DNA from: Apostichopus japonicus
Lineage: Eukaryota > Echinodermata > Holothuroidea > Aspidochirotida > Stichopodidae
DNA length: 64,000 bases
Reading direction: 5' to 3'
Assembly: GCF_037975245.1 (NCBI RefSeq)
Contig: NC_092570.1
Location: 8,677,001 to 8,741,000, forward strand
Shown here: piece after piece, positions 49,001 through 61,000 of the stretch
Layout of the letters: each line of letters opens with the position of its first letter
How positions within the stretch are numbered: the first letter of the stretch is position 1
Made by a program: the position numbers and the translations under genes
The notes under the pieces: generated by a model
Databases searched by the model: none
Told to the model about the DNA's origin: nothing
Seen by the model: only the letters and a program-made list of their open reading frames with translations

Positions 49001-52000
49001 AGAGAGGACAAGGAAGAGGATTTCATCCTTTTCTTAGCTTAGTCGGTTTTATGATAAAATTTCAATTTGCTTGAACTCGTGAACACAAACATACTATTTC
49101 CTCCCCCTCCCCCAAACTTATGAACACAAACAAACCATTGCCCCCCTCTCCCCTCCTCCCCCCCCATTCTCTTTTAATTTAGAGACTTACATCACCAAAT
49201 ATTTTGAAAGTACATGTTCTCTCATCTAAGTCAATTCTCTTGACTCCTTCCACCGATCTAGCTTGGTGGATATTCGATCCATGAGTACCGATTGCTAGAC
49301 CCATCAGATCTTCTGCTACAGAGACCTCTTCAAAGTGACCATCGGTTTGCTGTTTCGATTCCTATGGGAAAGAATTGGTAAAACCATTAATCAAAATCCA
49401 CGAGTAATAAGTAGAAAGATAAATGCATTCCTTATACAAAAGCAGTGTAGCAGTGGACTCATGGATATATGATGTAGACGTTGGGACCAATCAGTTCATG
49501 GTTTGAAGATAATTCTATAAGTGTACAGTGTAGCAGGGGTGTCATGAGAGTACATGGTGTAGACATGGGGACATATCAGTTTATGGTTAGTAGATAAATA
49601 CCTTACAGTGGACTCCTGAGTATATGGTGAAGACATTGGGACCAATCAGTTTATGGATTGTTAATAGTTCTATAAGTGTAGCCGGGGTGTAATGAGTATA
49701 TGGTGTAGACATAGGGACCAATCAGTTTATGGTTAGTAGATAAATACCTTACAGTGGACTCCTGAGTATATGGTGTAGACGTTGGGACCAATCAGTTTAT
49801 GGTTTGTTGATAATTCTATAAGTGTACAGTGCAGCAGGGGGGTGGGGGGAGTTTAATGAGTACATGGTGTAGACATGGGTACCAATCAGTTTATGGTTAG
49901 TAGATAAATACTTTACAGTGGACTCCTGAGTATATGGTGAAGACATTGGGACCAATCAGTTTATGGATTGTTGATAGTTCTATAAGTGTAGCCGGGGTGT
50001 AATGAGTATATGGTGTAGACATAGGGACCAATCAGTTTATGGTTAGTAGATAAATACCTTACAGTGGACTCCTGAGTATATGGTGTAGACGTTGGGACCA
50101 ATCAGTTTATGGTTTGTTGATAATTCTATAAGTGTACAGTGCAGCAGGGGGGTGAGGGGGGGGGGAGTTTAATGAGTACATGGTGAAGACATGGGTACCA
50201 ATCAGTTTATGGTTTTCAGACAAATACCTTAAAGTGGACTCCTAAATGCATGGTGTAGACATGGGGACCAATCAGTTGATGGTTTGTAGATAATTCTTTA
50301 AGTGTTGCAGGGGTGTAATGAGTACATGGTGCAGACATGGGGGACCAATCAGTTTATGGTTTGTAGACAAATACCTTACAGTGGTTACATGATTATGTAG
50401 TGTAGACATTGGAGTTTATGGTTTGTAGACAGTGGACAAACAAGCCTACAGTGTGTAACAGTGGACTTATCACTCTATGGTGTACATGTGGGGCCAGTGA
50501 TATTGTTACAACCCTTACCTCTAATTGTTGTGCAGCATCTTTTGCCCTCTGGATCATAATGAATTTCTCCCTCAGGTTCCTGACATGCATATCTCCTAAC
50601 AGCTCCGTCCTCTTAGAGATGGCTTCTGACTGGGACTGCAGGTAGAGAATGGATATGAAGAGATGATTGTCTGACAAATGATACAGACTCCTTAAAAAGA
50701 GTGTTTTGTTGGTTATAAAATATTTAACAATAACTAAAGACAACATTACACAAAGTACAAAGTAACCATTGGTAATTTTTACCATTGATGATAGCATTGT
50801 TACATTATAGTCATCTAAGCATTGCTACCTACATACCCATATGAAAGTATCATCAAATATTTGTTACTTCTGAGGAAATATTTTACTAACTCGTCAACTT
50901 TTCAACAAAAATCTGATATATTCATTATAGCTGAAAGCTGAGAAGATATTTCTGAATTTACTCACAAAGACTAGAAGGGCTTGGCTATCTTCGTGGTATA
51001 TGACTGACATTGCACCGGTAGCGACAGCAAATTCTCTATGATGAGCAGGATCCTTAGCTCTGAATAACATGAAACCAAGCATGGCCATCAATTTCAAAGG
51101 ATTTCGCAAATGAAATAATAAGATGTCATAAAAATTAGTGGGAAACTAAGCATTTTATGAAATGGATTAAATGGCTAAAGACTGGTGTAACTCAATGTGA
51201 AATAATAATAATCATGAGCAGCTAAGCAGTTGCAACCTTCGTATGCCCCCCCCCCCCCCCCGTAAGTATGATGAAGGGATATCCAATTGTGTGAAAATGT
51301 GACAGAATGTGGTCAAATTGGTGCAAAGTTACACCGAAGTTACACTTTACTGGTAATATTATTATTATTATTATATGATACAACGCATAGAAAACTGAAT
51401 TGCAAGCTGATAAGACTAATCATTGTAGACGTTTCACTATGCATATTCATACTTACAATTGCCTGAGATCTGCAGGGACTTCGATACTGTTCTTGAATAC
51501 AGATTCTGCGGAGAGGGGAGGACTGGAAGGAAAATAAGAAACAAAGGACCTTTCCCGTAACAATCGTAGTTAAACAACTATTAATGCAAACGATATCATC
51601 TTTATCCAAAAAGATGACTGAATTGGTTCTGAAAATGCAAAGTTTAAAATACACTTCCAGTGATAATTGAATATTAAATATATTAAGGTATATACAGTAC
51701 CGCCAATAAGTAACTTGGTAAACCACGCTCTTTTTTTGCGCTCTGTGCATTTAACCTCGCTCTATCTTTTGTTAAAACCCTGCATTGGTAATTGCGGGAA
51801 ACTGTTTATCAGAGCGCAGATTCCGTCGGAAGGCTTCCCTAATTCTATTCATGCCCGCTAGAAGTGTGAAGTTCATTGTTACCGTCAGACGGTCAATGGC
51901 TGTAATCCTACTTAATTCCTTCCAATCCGGTAACAAAAGAATATCGATCGTCGCCGGTAGAAGGAAGACCGCAGGTTTATACTCAGTCAAGAGAAGGGAT

Positions 52001-55000
52001 AGTGTTAAGCACGTATCTTACACTGTTTAAATTCAACGTACAATACAAATGTCCAAGTGTGCGCAAAACAGTTGGTTTGATGAGTGAAACGTTAGCATAA
52101 AAACTTCCCACGAACAATAAAAATTGCCGGTTAATATTCAAACAGTTCTCAACATCCTTCCGGAAATAACAATATTCCGGAAAGTTATACAGGAATCATG
52201 ATTTTTCCTACCACAGACAAAGTAAGAAAGCCAAATTGATCAATCCCTGGGCTAGAACAGTATACTAATCTTGCAAGTATATGGGCTATTCGCGCACGTG
52301 TTACATTACGGAACTGAGTTGGTACTCAGTTGTATACTGCACTGAGACATTGCACGTTGTCACTGCCCTTGGAATTCCCCAAGTATACAGCTTCACGGGC
52401 ACTGTTCAAAACAACACTTCAAACGTTTGTGCACGTTGTTCTCATTTAGTATGCATGACCATTAAATCCCCCCAAAAGGGAATTCACATTTTACCTGTAG
52501 GCGGAAAATCATTGGTACAGCAGGCTGTCGTCTGATGATTTGCATGCTACAGTACTGTACAACATTCTTACAATGTGCGTGAAACCCTTGTTCTTAGTTA
52601 AACTTGGCAAATCTCCAAGAAATGATTGGCAGTGAAACGGCATCCTAGAATTCGACTTTACCTTCAAAAAATCGCCTTTAGTTCGGTTGTATCAGCAAAA
52701 GTCTCAATTTGCCCGAAAATGCCACGACATATCGATGATTATACTCGACGTCGTATAGTGTATTTGCACGATAAGAAGTATTCAAAATCGAATATTCGCA
52801 GAACTTTGATAAGAGAAGGACTTTCAGCAAGTTATAATAGTATTCTTCACGTAATCTCAAAATATGAGGAAACGGGCAAAATTGAGGACAAACACAGATC
52901 AGGAAGGAAAAGAGCAATACCCGACAGGACAAGAAATTATCGAAAGCAGTCTCTTAGCGAATGATGAAATGACGGCCCCGGACTTACAGAAAAAGATTCA
53001 AGAGGAGACCGGGTCTTTAATTTCGCATTCTACAATTAAGAATGTTTGCCTTAAAAAGCTAAACTGAGTTACGTCATCGCCTAAATATTGTCAGACAATA
53101 CGAGAACTGAACAAGCGGAAGAGACTTGCATTTGCGTTGAACTGTCTCTATAACGATGAAACATTCGAAAATGTTATATTTACGGACGAAAGTAGTATTG
53201 AACTGAACAGGCATTCTAACGTAACGTTTCGGAAACGCAAGGATCCACATTACAAAAGAAACTTAAAGCTGAAACCAAAACATCCCACTAAAGTTCACGT
53301 TTGGGCAGGTATTTCATCAGCTGGAGCGACACCAATCGTTATATTTCGCGGTATAATGGATTCACAGTATTATGTTGAGGAAATCCTACAAAACACTCTT
53401 TTACCCTATGTTGAAACCAAATTCCCCGATGGATCATATAGATTCGTTCAGGACAACGATCCTAAGCACCGCAGCCGTCTTGCCCTTGATTTCATCGAGC
53501 AAAACAACATCAAGTAGGATGGTGACTTCGAAGTTCGGCCACTTAAGACTTAAAACACCCCAAAACTAAATCTTCTGGTATAAATCATTTGAAAATATAC
53601 TTCATATGGTCGGAGAATTTTGTTATAGTACGATACACGGCCAAACTTTCTTTCCTGCAAACTGTTTTCACGTGTTTTCCAAGAAGATTCTTCGTGATTG
53701 TGGAACTGGTATTTCTTGCTAGAGTATTGCGAAGTTCGGACACGCAACCCACAGTGTGGCGCTGGTGATAAAATTGGTGGCGCAGTTGCTTTTTCAGTAA
53801 TTATAACAGACTTCATAGATCTTCGTCATTTTATTGACAAATATGTAAGTAATTTCTTGCACACGGGTCATTTTGGAGAGAAAATAACTGTAGCTTCGTA
53901 CTTTTTGGTGAAATTTGACTCTTCCTGTAGATTTTCATGGTGAAATCGTGTATTTCTTAGGGTGTCCGAACTTTCGCAGTATGCCGAACTTCGCAATACT
54001 GACTATACTGGGAAACACCTCCAGAATCCCCGGACCTCAATCCCATAGAGAACCTTTGGCATGAGCTGAAATATTTTTTGCGCAAGGTATTATCTTTATT
54101 ATTTTCAATTTCATGTAATTAGGGACACGTAATAAAGTTATCTAAAATGGGTGGTTTCTACCTAGTACACATCTCATTCTTGTTTCAGTCCAAATCTTGC
54201 AAATTCTTTTACGATATTAACTGATATTTACTGACCATGAGGAGTTATATGTTTAAATACTGTATGTTAATTAGCAACATCACGTAATGTTTCGCATCAC
54301 CAAAAAACGTAACCTACTAACACGTCACTGTAACATTTGGGTCATTGTAACTTTTGCGAGATCGGTTCATTGAACCAGACTAAACTCCAGACATACAAAT
54401 AAAGTGATATATTTTCTTAACAATAGCCATCACATTCTTGTTGCAGGTTCATAAACCAATGAACCAAGACCAGCTTATAGCGGGTATACAGCTGTTTTGG
54501 ACACAGAGAGTCACAGCGGAAAAGTGTAGGAAATACGTAAACCACCTTCAGAAAGTTGTTCTCACAGTTGTAACGCAAAAAGGCGGACCATCCGGGTTCT
54601 AATTAGAAGAAAGATATTATAAAATTGAAAAAATTCAAAACTTTAATAACTTTAATATCTTTGCTGTCGGCATATTTCAACACATTATTACTAGCACCCG
54701 TCTGTGGTGGTCTTTACGCAACAGTATTTGGTTTTGACACATAATTATAGATCAAAAGCAAGCGACAAAATCATTAATCCGTTTTGGTTTAATCCAAGGC
54801 GGAACATCAAACAGCGGATTTCTTTAAAATAAGAAAATTTCACTATAAGGCTGTCGTTATAATTTGAAACTTTGGTGCTTAGGTAAGAAGACGCAGCAAG
54901 AAGTAGGCTACTGTATAATTAATAATGTCTCTCAAATTAAAGTCGTGTGTGCAAGCTTTGGATCCCGTTTCGGGAATTTGGCTATCTGGTAGGATCGTAT

Positions 55001-58000
55001 TAATAGAGCAGAATAGATTCAAAATAAAATGGACCGGTTATTCAGAACAGTCGTTTGTTGCAAAAGCTGAAGTAAGATCTCCAATAATACGATGGAACAT
55101 CAAGTTACAAGCAAGCGATTGGAAAAGCGTCGATATAAAGTCATGTCAACGAGGGGATAAAGTTGTACATAAGAATCCGAATGGAACGAAGGGGAACGTG
55201 CTTACAATCTCATCAAACGATCCTTGGAATTGTGAGGTAAGTGTTTCGATTTCTTTTTTGAAGTAACACGAAATCCGTACCGCCAACGTGGTCTGGCTAT
55301 TCGTCAAACTCAGCTTAGATATCATTACTTCTGAACTTTGGAAAGTTCTAGAAAATACTTAACGATAAACACTCAGAGGTGGTCCTTTTTTTTCTTTTTC
55401 TTTTGGGGCGGGGGATAGCTTTAAAATGTTTTACTCGATCCTCCGTTATATTTTAAATCTCTAATATCTTTTCACCAATTTATTTTCATTACTATCACTC
55501 TAAAGAGGGTGGAGATAATTTTTTATTTACGGCTCCGACGATTGGTATCATACCGACGGGTTTATCATTGTACAATAGGAAATTAAGTTGCGCCAAATGG
55601 TAGAGGCGATTGTGTATTTCTGACCGAGTGAACTACAGTAGCCTTCTTTACTATAGCACAACAACCATTTTTGAGGATCTATAGGTTTAAAGTTTTTTGC
55701 TTCAACCTCTGTAATATTTGAAATTTTTTCTTTCTCTTATCTATGTCATTCCTTTCACTTTTAAGAGGGGGGGAAGAGTTTTGTCTTATTTATGACACGG
55801 ACGACCGGTATCATAGTCGCATTCGAAAAAGAGACAGACTTACAGGCTTACATCACCAACCAAATTGGCTGATAATAGCACGTTTACACATCAATTGGCC
55901 TTAGCATTATTTTTACCACTGCATTTGTAATATGGTCCTCCAAGTGAAATATTTACTACTAGCCTATTGTATTTTACTTTGCTTGTAAATCTTGATTCGC
56001 ACGGCCGAACGTCTTCACAAGTATGAACACGTCCAAGAGTTTGCGGTGGGACCAGAGACAAGCTGCAATGATGAGCCTGCGTGTCGCAAGGAGGTAAGGA
56101 CAATGTCCAATGTGGGCTGTGTATGTATTTGTGTATGTATGCGTGTATGTGTGGGTGAATGTATTTGTGTGTCATGTATGTATGTATGCATGTATGTATG
56201 TGTGTACACCCAACCCCCACCCCCTTACTTAATTACCACAGACTCAAAAGTGAGTTCAATGAATGTTTGGTGCTTGCACCTATTTCCACAATGACAGGAA
56301 AAGTAAGCATTTGCACTTAACTTAATTTCACACACCCTATTTCAGACATGTCAACAGCCAAGAAAGAAACCAAAGGTCAACAAGGAAAACTGCGACCCAC
56401 GAAGGGAACCACTGGCTCCGGTTTGGTTAGAGTCTGCCCAGATAGGTAGAATGCAGAAGAAAGTGACAGACGGTACAAGCGATGTAAGTAATCTTAGCAG
56501 TAATAAGTAGCAGCCGGTAAAACAAAGTTAGGCATTACAATAAACTTTCACACGCTTTTCCTGTTACTCCTTTTCACGGTGAACAAGAAGAATTCTGGCC
56601 TAAATGCCCGCAAAAAACCACCATCTACTGTTCAGTCGGAGTTGGTCAAAAAAGTTGGAGTACTGAAGAAAGTAACAAAGAAAGTTACAAAAGAAGTAAG
56701 TTATCTTGCCATTTATTTGTACTACCTTTGACCCGCCCACCCCGCCCCCCAAACCCCCACCCCCATAGAAAAATTAAAAGTCTATAAATATGTACCTTTC
56801 ATGCAACACTTTCATAACTTCCCTTTTCAGAGAGCTGTAACAATCGCAGTACAACCTGCAGTGAGGGAGCTGTTGGAGGGTCCTATCTCCCAATCTGATG
56901 AAGCTGCGGTTATGAGAGGCAACCATAACAAGCTCGTCAATGGCAAGAAGGAAAACTTGCTGAGGTATGGGCTTTTAGCTCTAAACGAGCTAGAACAAAA
57001 TACAGGAGAGGGAACGGCAGACCCTGTGACAGTGGAACTTGATCTTGAGCCAGAACAAAATACAGGAGAGGGAACCGCAGACCCTGTGACAGTGGAAATT
57101 GATCTTGAGCCAGAGTTATTGCTGCCTCCACCAATATCACCCCTTCTTCGTACACCATCCCAAAGTGAAGAAACGCCAGCTGCAAAGGATGATCAAGACT
57201 CCCTATGCCAACGGGTAGCAACTCTAGAGAGGCTTGTTGCAGAGCTACAAAAGCAGATTTCGACCCGTCCACCTTCAATATTTACGAGTACCCCGTCACC
57301 TTCAACAGTTACGAGTACCCCGTCACCTTCAACAGTTACGAGTTCCCCGTCACCTTTACGCCCTTCAGCCAGTGTTGACAGCGCATCTTCATCAAACGCT
57401 AGTAACTCATTTTCCACCCCAGTGAGAAGTTGTGGTTCAGATTCACCACCAACAGAGGAAATCCATTTTGGACCAGGAGATATATTTTTGAACATATGAT
57501 CACTTCCTCCAAGGTGCCAGGAGCAGAACTTGTCATAACAGAAATAAGACCTGACGTTGTACTGTCGTCTCTTTCTGAACAGGGAGATCCATGTGGTCTT
57601 GCCAGATATTTAATGCGTCAAATATTTACACTATATGAGCTTTCAAATTGTAATGTTAATGGGATTAAGAAAAATGCACTTGATAAGGATAGGGTGTCTG
57701 CAATTAGAAAATGTATTATGGAGCAGTGTCATGTACCCTTTCACATTCAGAAGGCAGTTTGGAGACAGTGTGTTAAAAAGATGGACACAGCCAACAGAAA
57801 TGCTAAGATATACTTAGCAATGGTAGTCAAATCTTGAAGTATTTTCAGTATATTCCATTTTCCTCTATTCTTTTTGTCATCACATATTTGAACTAATTCT
57901 TGATGTGAAACCTTTGAAGACTGTAGTCAAAAAGAACTACATGTTAATTTTGATCCCTTGCATGGTAATTTTGATATTTTGCTTTCAATCTTGTATTTTT

Positions 58001-61000
58001 CAATGTTTTTGCCTTTGTAAGTGCAATGTTTCCTAGTCTAATAGACAGTGTGTTGCTTTTAGTTTGCTTTTCTAAGCGTGACACTGTTGTACTGTTTTCT
58101 TTTATATTATTAATTTATTTGCTTTGTGAGTGCAAAGCTTCCTACTGTAGCCTAATGTGTGCCTAACTTTCCTTTTAGAATTTTTAAAAGATTTAGAGAA
58201 AATACAGACTGTTTGTTTCTTTTTAGTTTGCATTTCTAAGCTTTAACACTGTTGCATGTTTTTCTTATTTTATAATCATTTGCTTTGTTGGATTACATCC
58301 TTAAATTTGTTTCGTCAACATCGGCATCATCGTGAAGTTCTTTGTTCCTCGTCTTTCTTGCTTGCTTTACGAAAAGATAAGTGAAATATATGTACTTCTC
58401 TTGCTACAGTATGCTAAATCAAAATGTTCACAATTTTTGAACTGTAAGTAAATACCCCCAGGAAAGAACTCTTTGAAAATTTCTAGCAATTTAGGCATGA
58501 CATTATTTTGAGCTAAAGTAATACAGACCTCCTTTATTGCAACCAACAAATTAGAACACATTTAACTTACTATAACTGTTACCTTAGCTGACATCAAGGC
58601 ATGATAAGAGATAAATCATGCCATCCTAGCTTAGGCCTAGAACCAAGGATATACAGCACAATGGACTAGCCTTTCCAATCAAAATTTCAAAATATGACGC
58701 CGAGACCTAGGCTAGGTACTTAATGAATTGGTGCGTTTCCTACTCCTAAGCTAATGTGGCATAAGTTAACACAGAACGCGAGGCCTAATGTTACTATTAC
58801 TGATGACTGGTCGATAAAGTAAAACAAGCATGTGTCCTTAGAATTCTTTTTCAGTTTGGTTTCCAGGATATCACAATTATTCTCTTTACAACTCCTTTCA
58901 GTTAATGCCAACCTTCGTATTCGTAAGCCTATGAACAGTACTCTATAAATCAGTGCAACGTTTCCTGGCCTAATGTGCCTAAAGTCCACACAAAACGCGA
59001 GGCCTAATGTTACTACTAAAAATGATATGTTACCCCGAAAGGATAAGGCACGAAGTTTCCTTCTTGCTTTTTATTACTTCTGGTAACCAGAACATATCGG
59101 GGAATAAAGTAAAAACGTTTAAAACAGGTTTTGCCCTTCAACACGAAACTATTCTCGTTTAAAACTTTCAGTCAAAGTCGTGTACTTCGTCACTGGCCTA
59201 ATGTGCCTAAACTCAACACAAAACGCGAGGCCTAATGTTAGTACAAAAAAAGGTCTGTTAGTGTTACGGCGAAAGGATAAGGCACGAAGTTTCCTTCTTG
59301 CTTTATATTACTTCTGGTAACCAGAACATATCGGGGAATAAAATAAACACGTATAAAAAGGTTTTGCCCTTTAACATGAAACTCTTCTTGGTTAAAACTT
59401 TCTTTCAGTTAAAGTTCGTAATCTTCGTACTCGTAGGCCTTCTCTGGATGTTTACAATTGTGATGCATATAACGTGTGTTGGTTACAAGCGATCGGTTTA
59501 CACTACCTCCACACTATGAATAGCGTTGTATCGATCGGTTCACTCCCATTCCGTCGGTGGTGAATAGCGAGCGAGGGGAATTTGCGTTCCTTTATTTGGA
59601 GCGCGGGGAAAGTAGCGTTCCTTTATTTGGAGCGGGGTTAATTACAGTTAAGCTGCGTTTTGCGCTGAATCGCGCTAATCTTTACCAAGTTACTTCTTGG
59701 CGGTACTGTATATATATTTTTTATGACAAACATTTTGCCACAGGAAAAGGGAATGAATTGTTTTTTACTCAACTCCAAAGAAAGAGGTACTCACTTTTTG
59801 TTTCGGTGTCGTAACCTATCTTTTGTCACTATTTCGTTGTAAGTATTGTCATATCCCACATATTCTATGACATAAAACTGAAAAATCAGTGAACGAAAAA
59901 TAGAAAAGTAAATAATATGAATATTAAAGACACAGTTGTAACCTATAGATTAAATACATAACCAGATATTACTCAAAGTAATCATAATGTTATGATTCGA
60001 TATTATTCCGTCTATTGATCACCTTCACCCACTGCATATTGTACATGATCAATGACATACATGTGCTAAGTCATTTCATGGTTGTGGTTCAAACACATAT
60101 TCTAAAAGAGTTGTTCAAAATGTCTCCACAAATTGTTCCAGTCATTTTTCCTGAGCCCTATGCATATTGCATAGCCTTTGTGGTTTAACCATGATATTGT
60201 GCAAGTGAGAAATTTGTTTACTTTCAAGGATTATGGGGAACAATAGCCACAAGTGCTTTGGTTGAACTAAAACTTATATATGTGCACAGGTATGCAGTAT
60301 TGGGTGTGGTACATTGCAGCATACTGTAGACGTGTATGCTGTGATGTGGATGAGGTTAATACCAGGGCATTGGGATGCTTGCATCTCATGGGGGAGAGGT
60401 CAGCCGTCTCTCCTTTGTAGCAGATTTAACACGGATTTGAGATTACTGAAGGAGAGGATCCAATCACTGATCGACTCTATATAATCTTGTGTGTCAATAA
60501 AAAGATTGAGCACAGAGTTAGCAATCTGGGTGGGGTTCACAGGAGGCCATTGATTAAACAAAAGTTACAAAACATGCCATTACCTAACCAACTAAATTTT
60601 TTACTGCTCTAGGTAATAACAGCTGAATGACAGAGGACAGTGTCTTCCTATGCCAGTCCTTATATAATTAATGTCGAAAATTCAACCCTTTGCAGTGTTT
60701 AAAAACCCTAGCGCAGAATGTTTCTACTCCATTAAGTTAAATCCATTACCGAATTGTGACAGTAGAAGAACAAATTTCACTGCTTGTAACTGTGTTGTAC
60801 CACAATACACTATTCTCTCCACTATTCACTTCTGTGTTCAAAATCTTACATTTTTCGAGAAAGACAAGTATAAATTCTGGGAGATGCACCTGGCCAAGGC
60901 TTAGAAATGAAGTGAGCAAATTATGCTGAAAAGAGCTAAGAGATGAAACATGCCTATAACTATACAGTCTATCATCCCTCTTCCCCCCCCCCCACCTCGA

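Follow-up and report, generated by a model that had tools for sequence, protein, structure and literature searches.

Members of the Tc1/mariner superfamily are the textbook one-protein transposons and are usually about 1.3-2.5 kb in size. Mariner elements bearing Fanzor1, GIY-YIG, or restriction endonuclease plus methyltransferase genes have been described (PMC3627910), and KolobokP constitutes a two-protein lineage of eukaryotic DDD/E transposons, for which Apostichopus japonicus is among the species listed (PMC9587614). Among the open-access matches listed, no precedent for a BEN-bearing mariner element was found, and among those on two-gene Tc1/mariner elements nothing on BEN was found.

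Here an element lying within a 64,000-nucleotide stretch of A. japonicus DNA (the whole of which is termed here the window) is compared with its relatives throughout the same 671.6-Mb genome. The comparison suggests, with considerable confidence, that this element is a giant DD34E Tc1/mariner transposon, represented by a copy that is old and no longer active, whose normal set of genes would consist of a transposase and a BEN-domain accessory that the element needs.

Results

As the original prediction proposed, one giant element of the Tc1/mariner type encloses both a transposase gene and a BEN gene within a single pair of TA-flanked terminal inverted repeats (TIRs; Table 1). The inverted repeat reaches 34 nt at 97% when the TATATA flanks are included. 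Within the genome the 28-bp TIR has 110 matches at three or fewer mismatches, as compared with none for a reversed control, which is far beyond chance; the 10-bp CAGTACCGCC, which had been quoted as marking the ends, is by itself not beyond chance, having 402 matches as compared with 384 in the control. CAGT-starting TIRs and TA flanks, as in the DD34E Tc1/mariner transposons, occur in the window element, in 12 of 13 further paired elements of the same family (family 1) and in both copies of a diverged family (family 3, described below). Shortness and a single gene, which are usual for Tc1/mariner elements though not strictly defining, do not apply: the elements are 8.0 and 13.6 kb long and have two genes.

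Table 1. Features of the two-gene element (positions within the window)
Feature	Position	Strand	Remarks
Left TA flank	51693..51694		inside TATATA
Whole element, family 1	51695..59708	+	DD34E Tc1/mariner type with two genes; 8,014 bp
Left TIR	51695..51722	+	28 bp
Transposase, first coding part	52719..53516	+	start codon 52719; HTH region; first two catalytic Asp in IFTDESS and QDNDPKH
Nested TA-flanked interspersed repeat within transposase	53517..54005	.	489 bp
Transposase, coding part with catalytic Glu	54006..54086	+	Glu 34 residues past second Asp, counted across insert
Transposase intron, phase 0	54087..54446	+	relative at C2:30.0 Mb breaks at same residue (288/289)
Transposase, last exon	54447..54602	+	
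BEN gene exon 1, conserved N-terminal module (WxGY...NDP[YW])	54925..55236	+	donor GTAAGT
BEN gene exon 2	56022..56093	+	predicted, splice signals only
BEN gene exon 3	56346..56483	+	predicted, splice signals only
BEN gene exon 4, basic	56588..56695	+	predicted, splice signals only
BEN gene exon 5, Pro/Ser-rich linker and C-terminal BEN domain	56831..57837	+	
Subterminal direct repeats	58965..59398	.	period about 228-234 bp; matched in 13/13 paired family-1 loci
Right TIR	59681..59708	-	28 bp, 1 mismatch vs left
Right TA flank	59709..59710		inside TATATA

The assignment of the transposase to the DD34E group agrees with a match of 135 aa to Sleeping Beauty (PDB 5cr4, E=1.8e-10) and with a match of a 27-aa C-terminal catalytic piece to DDE_3 (PF13358, E=8.3e-7; 29.4 bits, cut-off 28.6). 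Pfam scanning covered selected pieces of the window element, among which the 135-aa piece gave no match. The catalytic spacing runs from D241 to E276 in the uninterrupted family-3 reading frame, and the count is equal in the window across the nested repeat. PF13358 matches in the transposases of family 2 (another diverged family) and family 3 reach 1e-12 and 8.2e-13, respectively. Within the HTH region, HTH_32 is found above its cut-off in the family-1 copy L020 (1.7e-9), while HTH_Tnp_Tc3_2 is found below its cut-off in family 3 (3.3e-6) and more weakly still in family 2. The transposase had also been described as spliced, which holds for the phase-0 intron, whereas the sequence at 53517-54005, supposed to be a second intron, belongs to a high-copy repeat nested in the gene and present at 96-100% identity in at least 40 other places (40 scored of 988 candidates); the alignment of the window to the family-3 transposase halts at this repeat and picks up again at residue 260.

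The transposase frame is broken both by a 2-nt length difference relative to L020 near 52930 and by an in-frame stop at 53065-53067, and the frame of BEN exon 5 is shifted by a 1-nt length difference near 57476 relative to L020, in which 307 codons of this exon are open. The window copy is inactive, both genes being broken, and is about 6-10% diverged from its relatives.

The recurrence of the element within the genome, which had been suggested as a check, is seen at several levels. There are 13 further TIR pairs (L009-L021), each of which has both of its ends in common with the window element; TA is found on both sides in 12 of the 13, or at 11 of 12 sites once L017 and L018, which are a single insertion counted twice, are merged. 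L020 retains the start of the transposase and BEN exon 5 within one TIR pair, and L029, a locus without TIRs, has the C-terminus of the transposase followed by the BEN gene. At the single TIRs L022, L024 and L025 the match to the element spans only 66-79 bp, so that long ends may be dispensable in cis.

Family 3 comprises two copies, one at C1:21310750-21324391 and the other on C17 (13,642 and 13,633 bp), which are 99.875% identical over 13,647 bp and which have perfect TIRs of 31 bp, a TA at either end, flanks unrelated to each other and uninterrupted reading frames for the transposase (363 aa) and for the BEN exon (445 aa). No ends or TIRs were found for family 2, either by comparing its C1, C17 and C14 copies or by scanning for TA-flanked inverted repeats; a candidate family-2 TIR, CAGTGCCGTAATTTAGTAACTTCG at C1:11246722, was rejected because it fits a different repeat family, whose 20 matches include one inside L019. 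Only in families 1 and 3 is the complete two-gene structure, TIRs included, proven. Transposase and BEN identities to family 3 are, respectively, 68% and 50-53% for family 2, 53% and 45% at C17:15.9, 52% and 29% for the window, and 46% and 34% at C2; the two do not drop strictly in step. The region C1:11.24-11.26 Mb holds duplicated blocks, and the C1, C17 and C16 copies of family 2 share ancestry.

BEN-domain proteins usually bind DNA, and are often chromatin-linked repressors or insulators. The C-terminal BEN domain of the window element is confirmed by PF10523 (E=5.5e-10; 39.8 bits, cut-off 23.2), with scores of 39.5 bits in L020 and of 30.6-33.1 bits in family 2; the family-3 domain scores 18.2 bits, under the cut-off, yet is 53% identical to that of family 2 over 94 aa. 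The L020 domain is nearest to family-2 BEN (1e-12), the remaining BEN open reading frames being far off (0.001 or worse), and no relatives of the BEN exon were found among viral contigs. At the other end of the protein, window exon 1 matches the N-terminal exon of family 3 (pairwise blastp E=2.7e-11, with 0 of 1000 shuffles as high), and in both the splice donor is at the identical place, four residues past NDP. Judging from these similarities, the second genes of the window and of the diverged families constitute one gene family. The N-terminal exon, labelled Tudor/chromo-like in the original prediction, has no Pfam match at E≤1 in the window and no chromo or Tudor match in family 3, and its AlphaFold2 models, one from the single sequence and one from three sequences, were too poor to use (mean pLDDT 40.8 and 39.6); its WxGY...W pattern is reminiscent of chromodomains. 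This exon is nevertheless a conserved module.

Between families 2 and 3, synonymous sites are saturated (pS 0.83-0.89), while pN is 0.22 for the transposase, 0.37 for BEN and 0.39 for the N-terminal exon; by this measure, both proteins have been kept between these families despite that saturation. Inside family 2, dN/dS for BEN is 0.31-0.60. Within family 1, the window and L020 give 0.78 for BEN exon 5 and 1.19 for the start of the transposase (which includes some codons beyond the L020 deletion junction), and L020 gives 1.26 against L029 and 0.58 against L031; these family-1 values say little about selection.

Throughout the genome, 10 of 12 loci related to the family-3 BEN domain, and 12 of 13 related to its N-terminal exon, have a DD34E transposase of the same clade no more than 11 kb away, as counted against a set of 25 transposase loci; displaced-position controls gave means of 0.03-0.33, with a maximum of 2 or 3 in 20,000. 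Seven transposase loci are free of stops over a match of 270 aa or more, and each of them has some portion of the second gene no farther than 11 kb away (both parts at three, BEN only at two and the N-terminal exon only at two). The second gene is undetected at 10 of the 25 transposase loci, most of which are fragments; one of them, C20:4895082, has a distant, 335-aa open frame at 32% identity. Conversely, a BEN match within 11 kb is absent at 5 of the 13 N-terminal-exon loci (C3, C20, C23, C16:30.66 and C17:17.91 Mb), and the BEN end is thus not proven in every lineage. Several loci cluster on C16 and C17.

Discussion

The most likely interpretation is that of a giant, two-gene Tc1/mariner lineage in which the BEN protein has been conserved as one of its parts and would serve as a DNA- or chromatin-binding accessory. 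This second protein would begin with the conserved module, continue through basic and Pro/Ser-rich linkers and end in the BEN domain. The transposase would have excised the element and reinserted it at TA, with recent movement in family 3, and the smaller elements, which lack both genes but share the ends, would have been moved in trans. The BEN protein most likely binds either the element's own end regions or its chromatin, and such binding would aid transposition of an unusually long element or keep the element expressible, two roles that are not separable here. A stronger proposal, put forward tentatively and at slightly short of an even chance, is that of a two-component lineage that depends on its self-encoded BEN protein to move efficiently, to choose targets or to evade silencing, both genes having persisted while the families diverged deeply and the gene order was rearranged repeatedly.

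Alternatively, the BEN protein may be mainly a self-encoded repressor or insulator and not a cofactor of transposition, either restraining transposition or protecting the element against silencing by the host. This reading, possible though somewhat doubtful, draws upon the chromatin-linked roles of BEN proteins and upon the divergent orientation of the transposase and the second gene at 9 of 15 linked loci, which in family 3 face away from each other across an upstream region that would be a place for regulating both. Against it, gene order varies among families: the transposase precedes the BEN gene, both reading in the same direction, in the window and at C2 (T>B>), and follows it in family 2 and at C16:26.08 Mb (B>T>). 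Given these differing orders, shuffling or repeated gain of the genes may have occurred.

That the BEN gene was instead acquired from the host and merely rides along as passive cargo, with no role for the element, seems improbable. Other BEN open reading frames, possibly host genes, are present in the same genome (L040-L043), and both genes are absent from 12 of the 14 family-1 TIR pairs read (the window included); because these short derivatives lack the transposase too, however, their success is uninformative about BEN alone. Passive cargo is harder to reconcile with the retention of the protein between families 2 and 3, with the conserved exon end and with the presence of some second-gene part at every uninterrupted transposase locus. 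The term 'passenger', which the original prediction applied to the BEN gene, rightly places a second gene inside the element but is too weak, because this gene appears to be a conserved partner.

It is very improbable that linkage in the diverged families arises from TE-dense regions or segmental duplication rather than from shared elements. The clustering on C16 and C17, the common ancestry of the C1, C17 and C16 copies of family 2 and the duplicated blocks on C1 would fit such an origin, but shifts of 20-100 kb inside the same regions gave a mean of only 0.29 (BEN) or 0.33 (N-terminal exon), with a maximum of 3; the linked loci are spread over eight contigs, their best transposase matches being 41-100% identical to family 3; and the family-3 copies have TA on both sides within unrelated flanks. 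Least credible of all is an accidental nest, in which a repeat or gene containing BEN was inserted by chance into a Tc1/mariner element of the ordinary kind so that the outer TIRs enclose unrelated pieces: nested repeats do occur (the one within the transposase, for example) and the window copy is diverged and broken, but the pairing is repeated in L020 and L029, beside transposases at most BEN and N-terminal-exon loci, and within the perfect TIRs of the 13.6-kb family-3 pair, so that the outcome named in advance as refuting a single element was not encountered.

If a two-gene lineage is indeed conserved across diverged families, then the Tc1/mariner superfamily can become multi-genic and much larger. 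Such a lineage would provide a natural system for asking how BEN domains act on DNA, and hints that transposons may be a source of BEN genes or a sink for them; the near-identical 13.6-kb pair, with its uninterrupted frames, makes the question approachable by experiment.

Like Tc1 and Sleeping Beauty, the present elements have a DDE_3 transposase (D, D, 34 residues, E), CAGT-starting TIRs, TA flanks and internal-deletion derivatives; unlike them, they are 8-14 kb long and have a conserved second gene bearing a BEN domain. They share with the mariner elements of PMC3627910 a mariner-type transposase, extra proteins between TIRs and TA duplications, but differ in the second protein, a BEN domain not being among those described in the passages of that source considered here. 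KolobokP differs both in its superfamily and in its second protein, which is a His-Me finger homing endonuclease (PMC9587614). Finally, as in other PF10523 proteins, the C-terminal BEN domain of families 1 and 2 scores above the Pfam cut-off; unlike those proteins, the present ones are transposon-borne and are joined to an N-terminal module that has no Pfam match.

Structure of the window element

The terminal inverted repeats (TIRs) are 28 bp each with one mismatch between them, and both ends adjoin TA within TATATA; with up to three mismatches allowed, the 28-bp TIR has 110 matches in the 671.6-Mb genome versus 0 for a reversed control. The original prediction of one TIR pair with TA flanks around 8 kb thus holds, although the 10-bp end motif quoted in it is uninformative alone (402 genome matches versus 384 in the reversed control). 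Both genes that it placed between the TIRs were identified: on the left a DD34E transposase gene, and on the right a five-exon gene with splice signals, whose four junctions are all in phase 0 and whose product ends in a BEN domain scoring 39.8 bits (Pfam cut-off 23.2). The claim that the transposase is spliced stands for a single intron; the other break is a copy of an interspersed repeat that was inserted at TA, interrupting the gene, and that has at least 43 genome matches, window copy included (the best 40 of 988 first-look candidates were scored), the long ones being 96-100% identical and the first 40, among which is the window copy, 98-100%. The transposase of a diverged relative, family 3, aligns to residue 260 before this repeat and on from 260 beyond it, and picks up at residue 289 past the intron; a relative on contig C2 has a break at 288/289, the same residue as the window intron. 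Both genes are broken in the window copy.

Coordinates of features of the window element
Feature	Window position	Length	Remarks
Whole element	51695-59708	8,014 bp	
Transposase start	52719		
Nested repeat in transposase	53517-54005	489 bp	TA-flanked; abundant interspersed repeat
Transposase intron	54087-54446		Phase 0; sole real intron

Other copies of the window element's family

Of 20 stretches fetched at TIR matches, 13 (loci L009-L021) are TIR pairs 1.5-6.4 kb apart. In all 13 both ends match those of the window element, and TA stands on both sides in 12; in L020, the one without, an end is altered. L017 and L018 share their flanks and are counted once, so that TA is on both sides at 11 of 12 sites. 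L017 and L018 hold one 4.1-kb element, on C2 and C8, and their common near flanks point to a probable duplication of a larger block once the element had inserted. Eight pairs (L009-L016) bound internal-deletion derivatives, in which pre-transposase sequence is joined to sequence following the BEN gene. The predicted recurrence of the two genes is seen at L020, whose TIRs enclose the beginning of the transposase together with BEN exon 5, open over 307 codons, and at L029--a locus in which no TIR was found--where the BEN gene comes after the transposase C-terminus. Of the transposase sequence, the initial 871 bp occur at two genome places only, the window and L020. The two-gene arrangement belongs to the family itself. 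Its copies show dN/dS values of 0.58-1.26, as is expected for decaying copies. Three single TIRs match the window element across just 66-79 bp, so the long ends may be dispensable in cis.

The BEN exon query matches 21 further loci in its 3' part only. They represent a repeat family: all three copies read (L030, L031 and L032) have variant TIR or end sequence, and the 18 others likewise match the 3' part only; L031 is a 3.8-kb TA-flanked element with variant TIRs, beside which (L031:1117-1741) a short motif occurs five times at 156-bp spacing and looks like a tandem repeat. A separate repeat family with TIR CAGTGCCGTAATTTAATAACGTCGTACG has a pair 3.76 kb apart at C7:5764490-5768245 and further matches, one of them within L019.

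Diverged relatives and selection

With the window transposase as query, relatives were found that share 49-56% identity and have long open frames. Two of these, on C1 and C17, belong to family 3, in which whole elements with both genes between TIRs and TA recur (13,642 and 13,633 bp): the two copies differ by 6 mismatches and 2 gap openings over 13,647 bp (99.875% identity), lie in unrelated flanks, and have perfect 31-bp TIRs (CAGTACTGATTTCGCTTAACTCCCGTTGAAA) with TA on each side. The TIRs enclose a transposase frame of 363 aa (D, D, 34 residues, E) and, on the other strand, a BEN exon of 445 aa, both uninterrupted; the exon ends in a BEN domain, which scores 18.2 in Pfam, under the cut-off, and is 53% identical to that of family 2, another relative with both genes. 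The family-3 TIR has 323 genome matches versus 0 in the control, and the one derivative fetched (L050, 3.76 kb) is 87-91% identical at both ends and matches neither gene. At C3:27189790-27203799 a family-3 TIR pair lies 14.0 kb apart, with no match inside in BEN and transposase searches; the interior is possibly filled with other repeats.

Ends of family-2 elements were looked for and not found. Duplicated blocks at C1:11.24-11.26 Mb (L034/L046) contain two BEN copies and a 179-aa ORF (VDGGCCLCTENY...RLDIWHF) with no Pfam match. Four loci (L040, L041, L042 and L043) have ORFs whose BEN domains are not closely similar to those of the transposons; they are candidate host BEN genes for comparison.

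Exon 1 of the window BEN gene has a homologous exon lying upstream of the BEN exons in families 3 and 2 (pairwise blastp E = 2.7e-11 and 2.8e-5, respectively); 0 of 1000 shuffles match the score against either. In all three, the splice donor lies four residues past NDP. Pfam gave no convincing match for this N-terminal module, and structure prediction gave no usable fold. Families 2 and 3 have diverged to saturation at synonymous sites (pS 0.83-0.89), whereas pN is 0.22 for the transposase, 0.37 for the BEN domain and 0.39 for the N-terminal exon, and pairs among three family-2 copies give BEN dN/dS of 0.31-0.60; selection has thus maintained both proteins for a long time.

Genome-wide linkage of the two genes

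Transposase matches (46) were grouped into 25 loci, and linkage was defined as a distance of at most 11 kb. The family-3 BEN-domain search finds 12 places, of which 10 are linked to a transposase locus, as compared with control means (20,000 runs each) of 0.03 for uniform placement (maximum 2), 0.14 for displacement by 20-500 kb (maximum 3) and 0.29 for displacement by 20-100 kb (maximum 3); the places on C14 and C19 have no transposase nearby. The N-terminal exon (14 matches, 13 loci) adjoins a transposase at 12 loci (mean 0.33 and maximum 3 under displacement by 20-100 kb) and family-2 BEN at the thirteenth; a BEN match lies within 11 kb at 8 of the 13 and at 5 none does. Conversely, some part of the second gene is linked to 15 of the 25 transposase loci (BEN at 10, the N-terminal exon alone at 5), including all 7 stop-free loci with at least 270 aa matched (3 with both parts, 2 with BEN only, 2 with the N-terminal exon only); most of the 10 remaining loci are fragmentary or match only distantly. 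Gene order is transposase then BEN on one strand in the window and on C2, BEN then transposase in family 2 and at C16:26.08 Mb, and divergent at nine linked loci out of 15, the two family-3 copies being among the nine. This variable order, the unlinked BEN places on C14 and C19 and the N-terminal exon loci at which BEN was not detected are points that do not fit, as are the family-2 ends that were not found, the short matches of the three single TIRs and the N-terminal module for which neither Pfam nor folding gave an answer.

Mechanism and relation to known elements

Given this anatomy and the known behavior of Tc1/mariner elements, the DD34E transposase would cut and paste the element at TA and would also move deletion derivatives in trans. 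Conservation of the BEN protein argues that it has a role for the element: our tentative preference is for a factor in transposition or targeting of these long elements; regulation or anti-silencing is a somewhat less probable function, and cargo, or some other explanation, is unlikely.

Among the matches listed, no BEN gene within a Tc1/mariner element was seen in the open-access literature. Because mariner-type elements with other extra genes have already been described (PMC3627910), the window element is a variation on a known theme.
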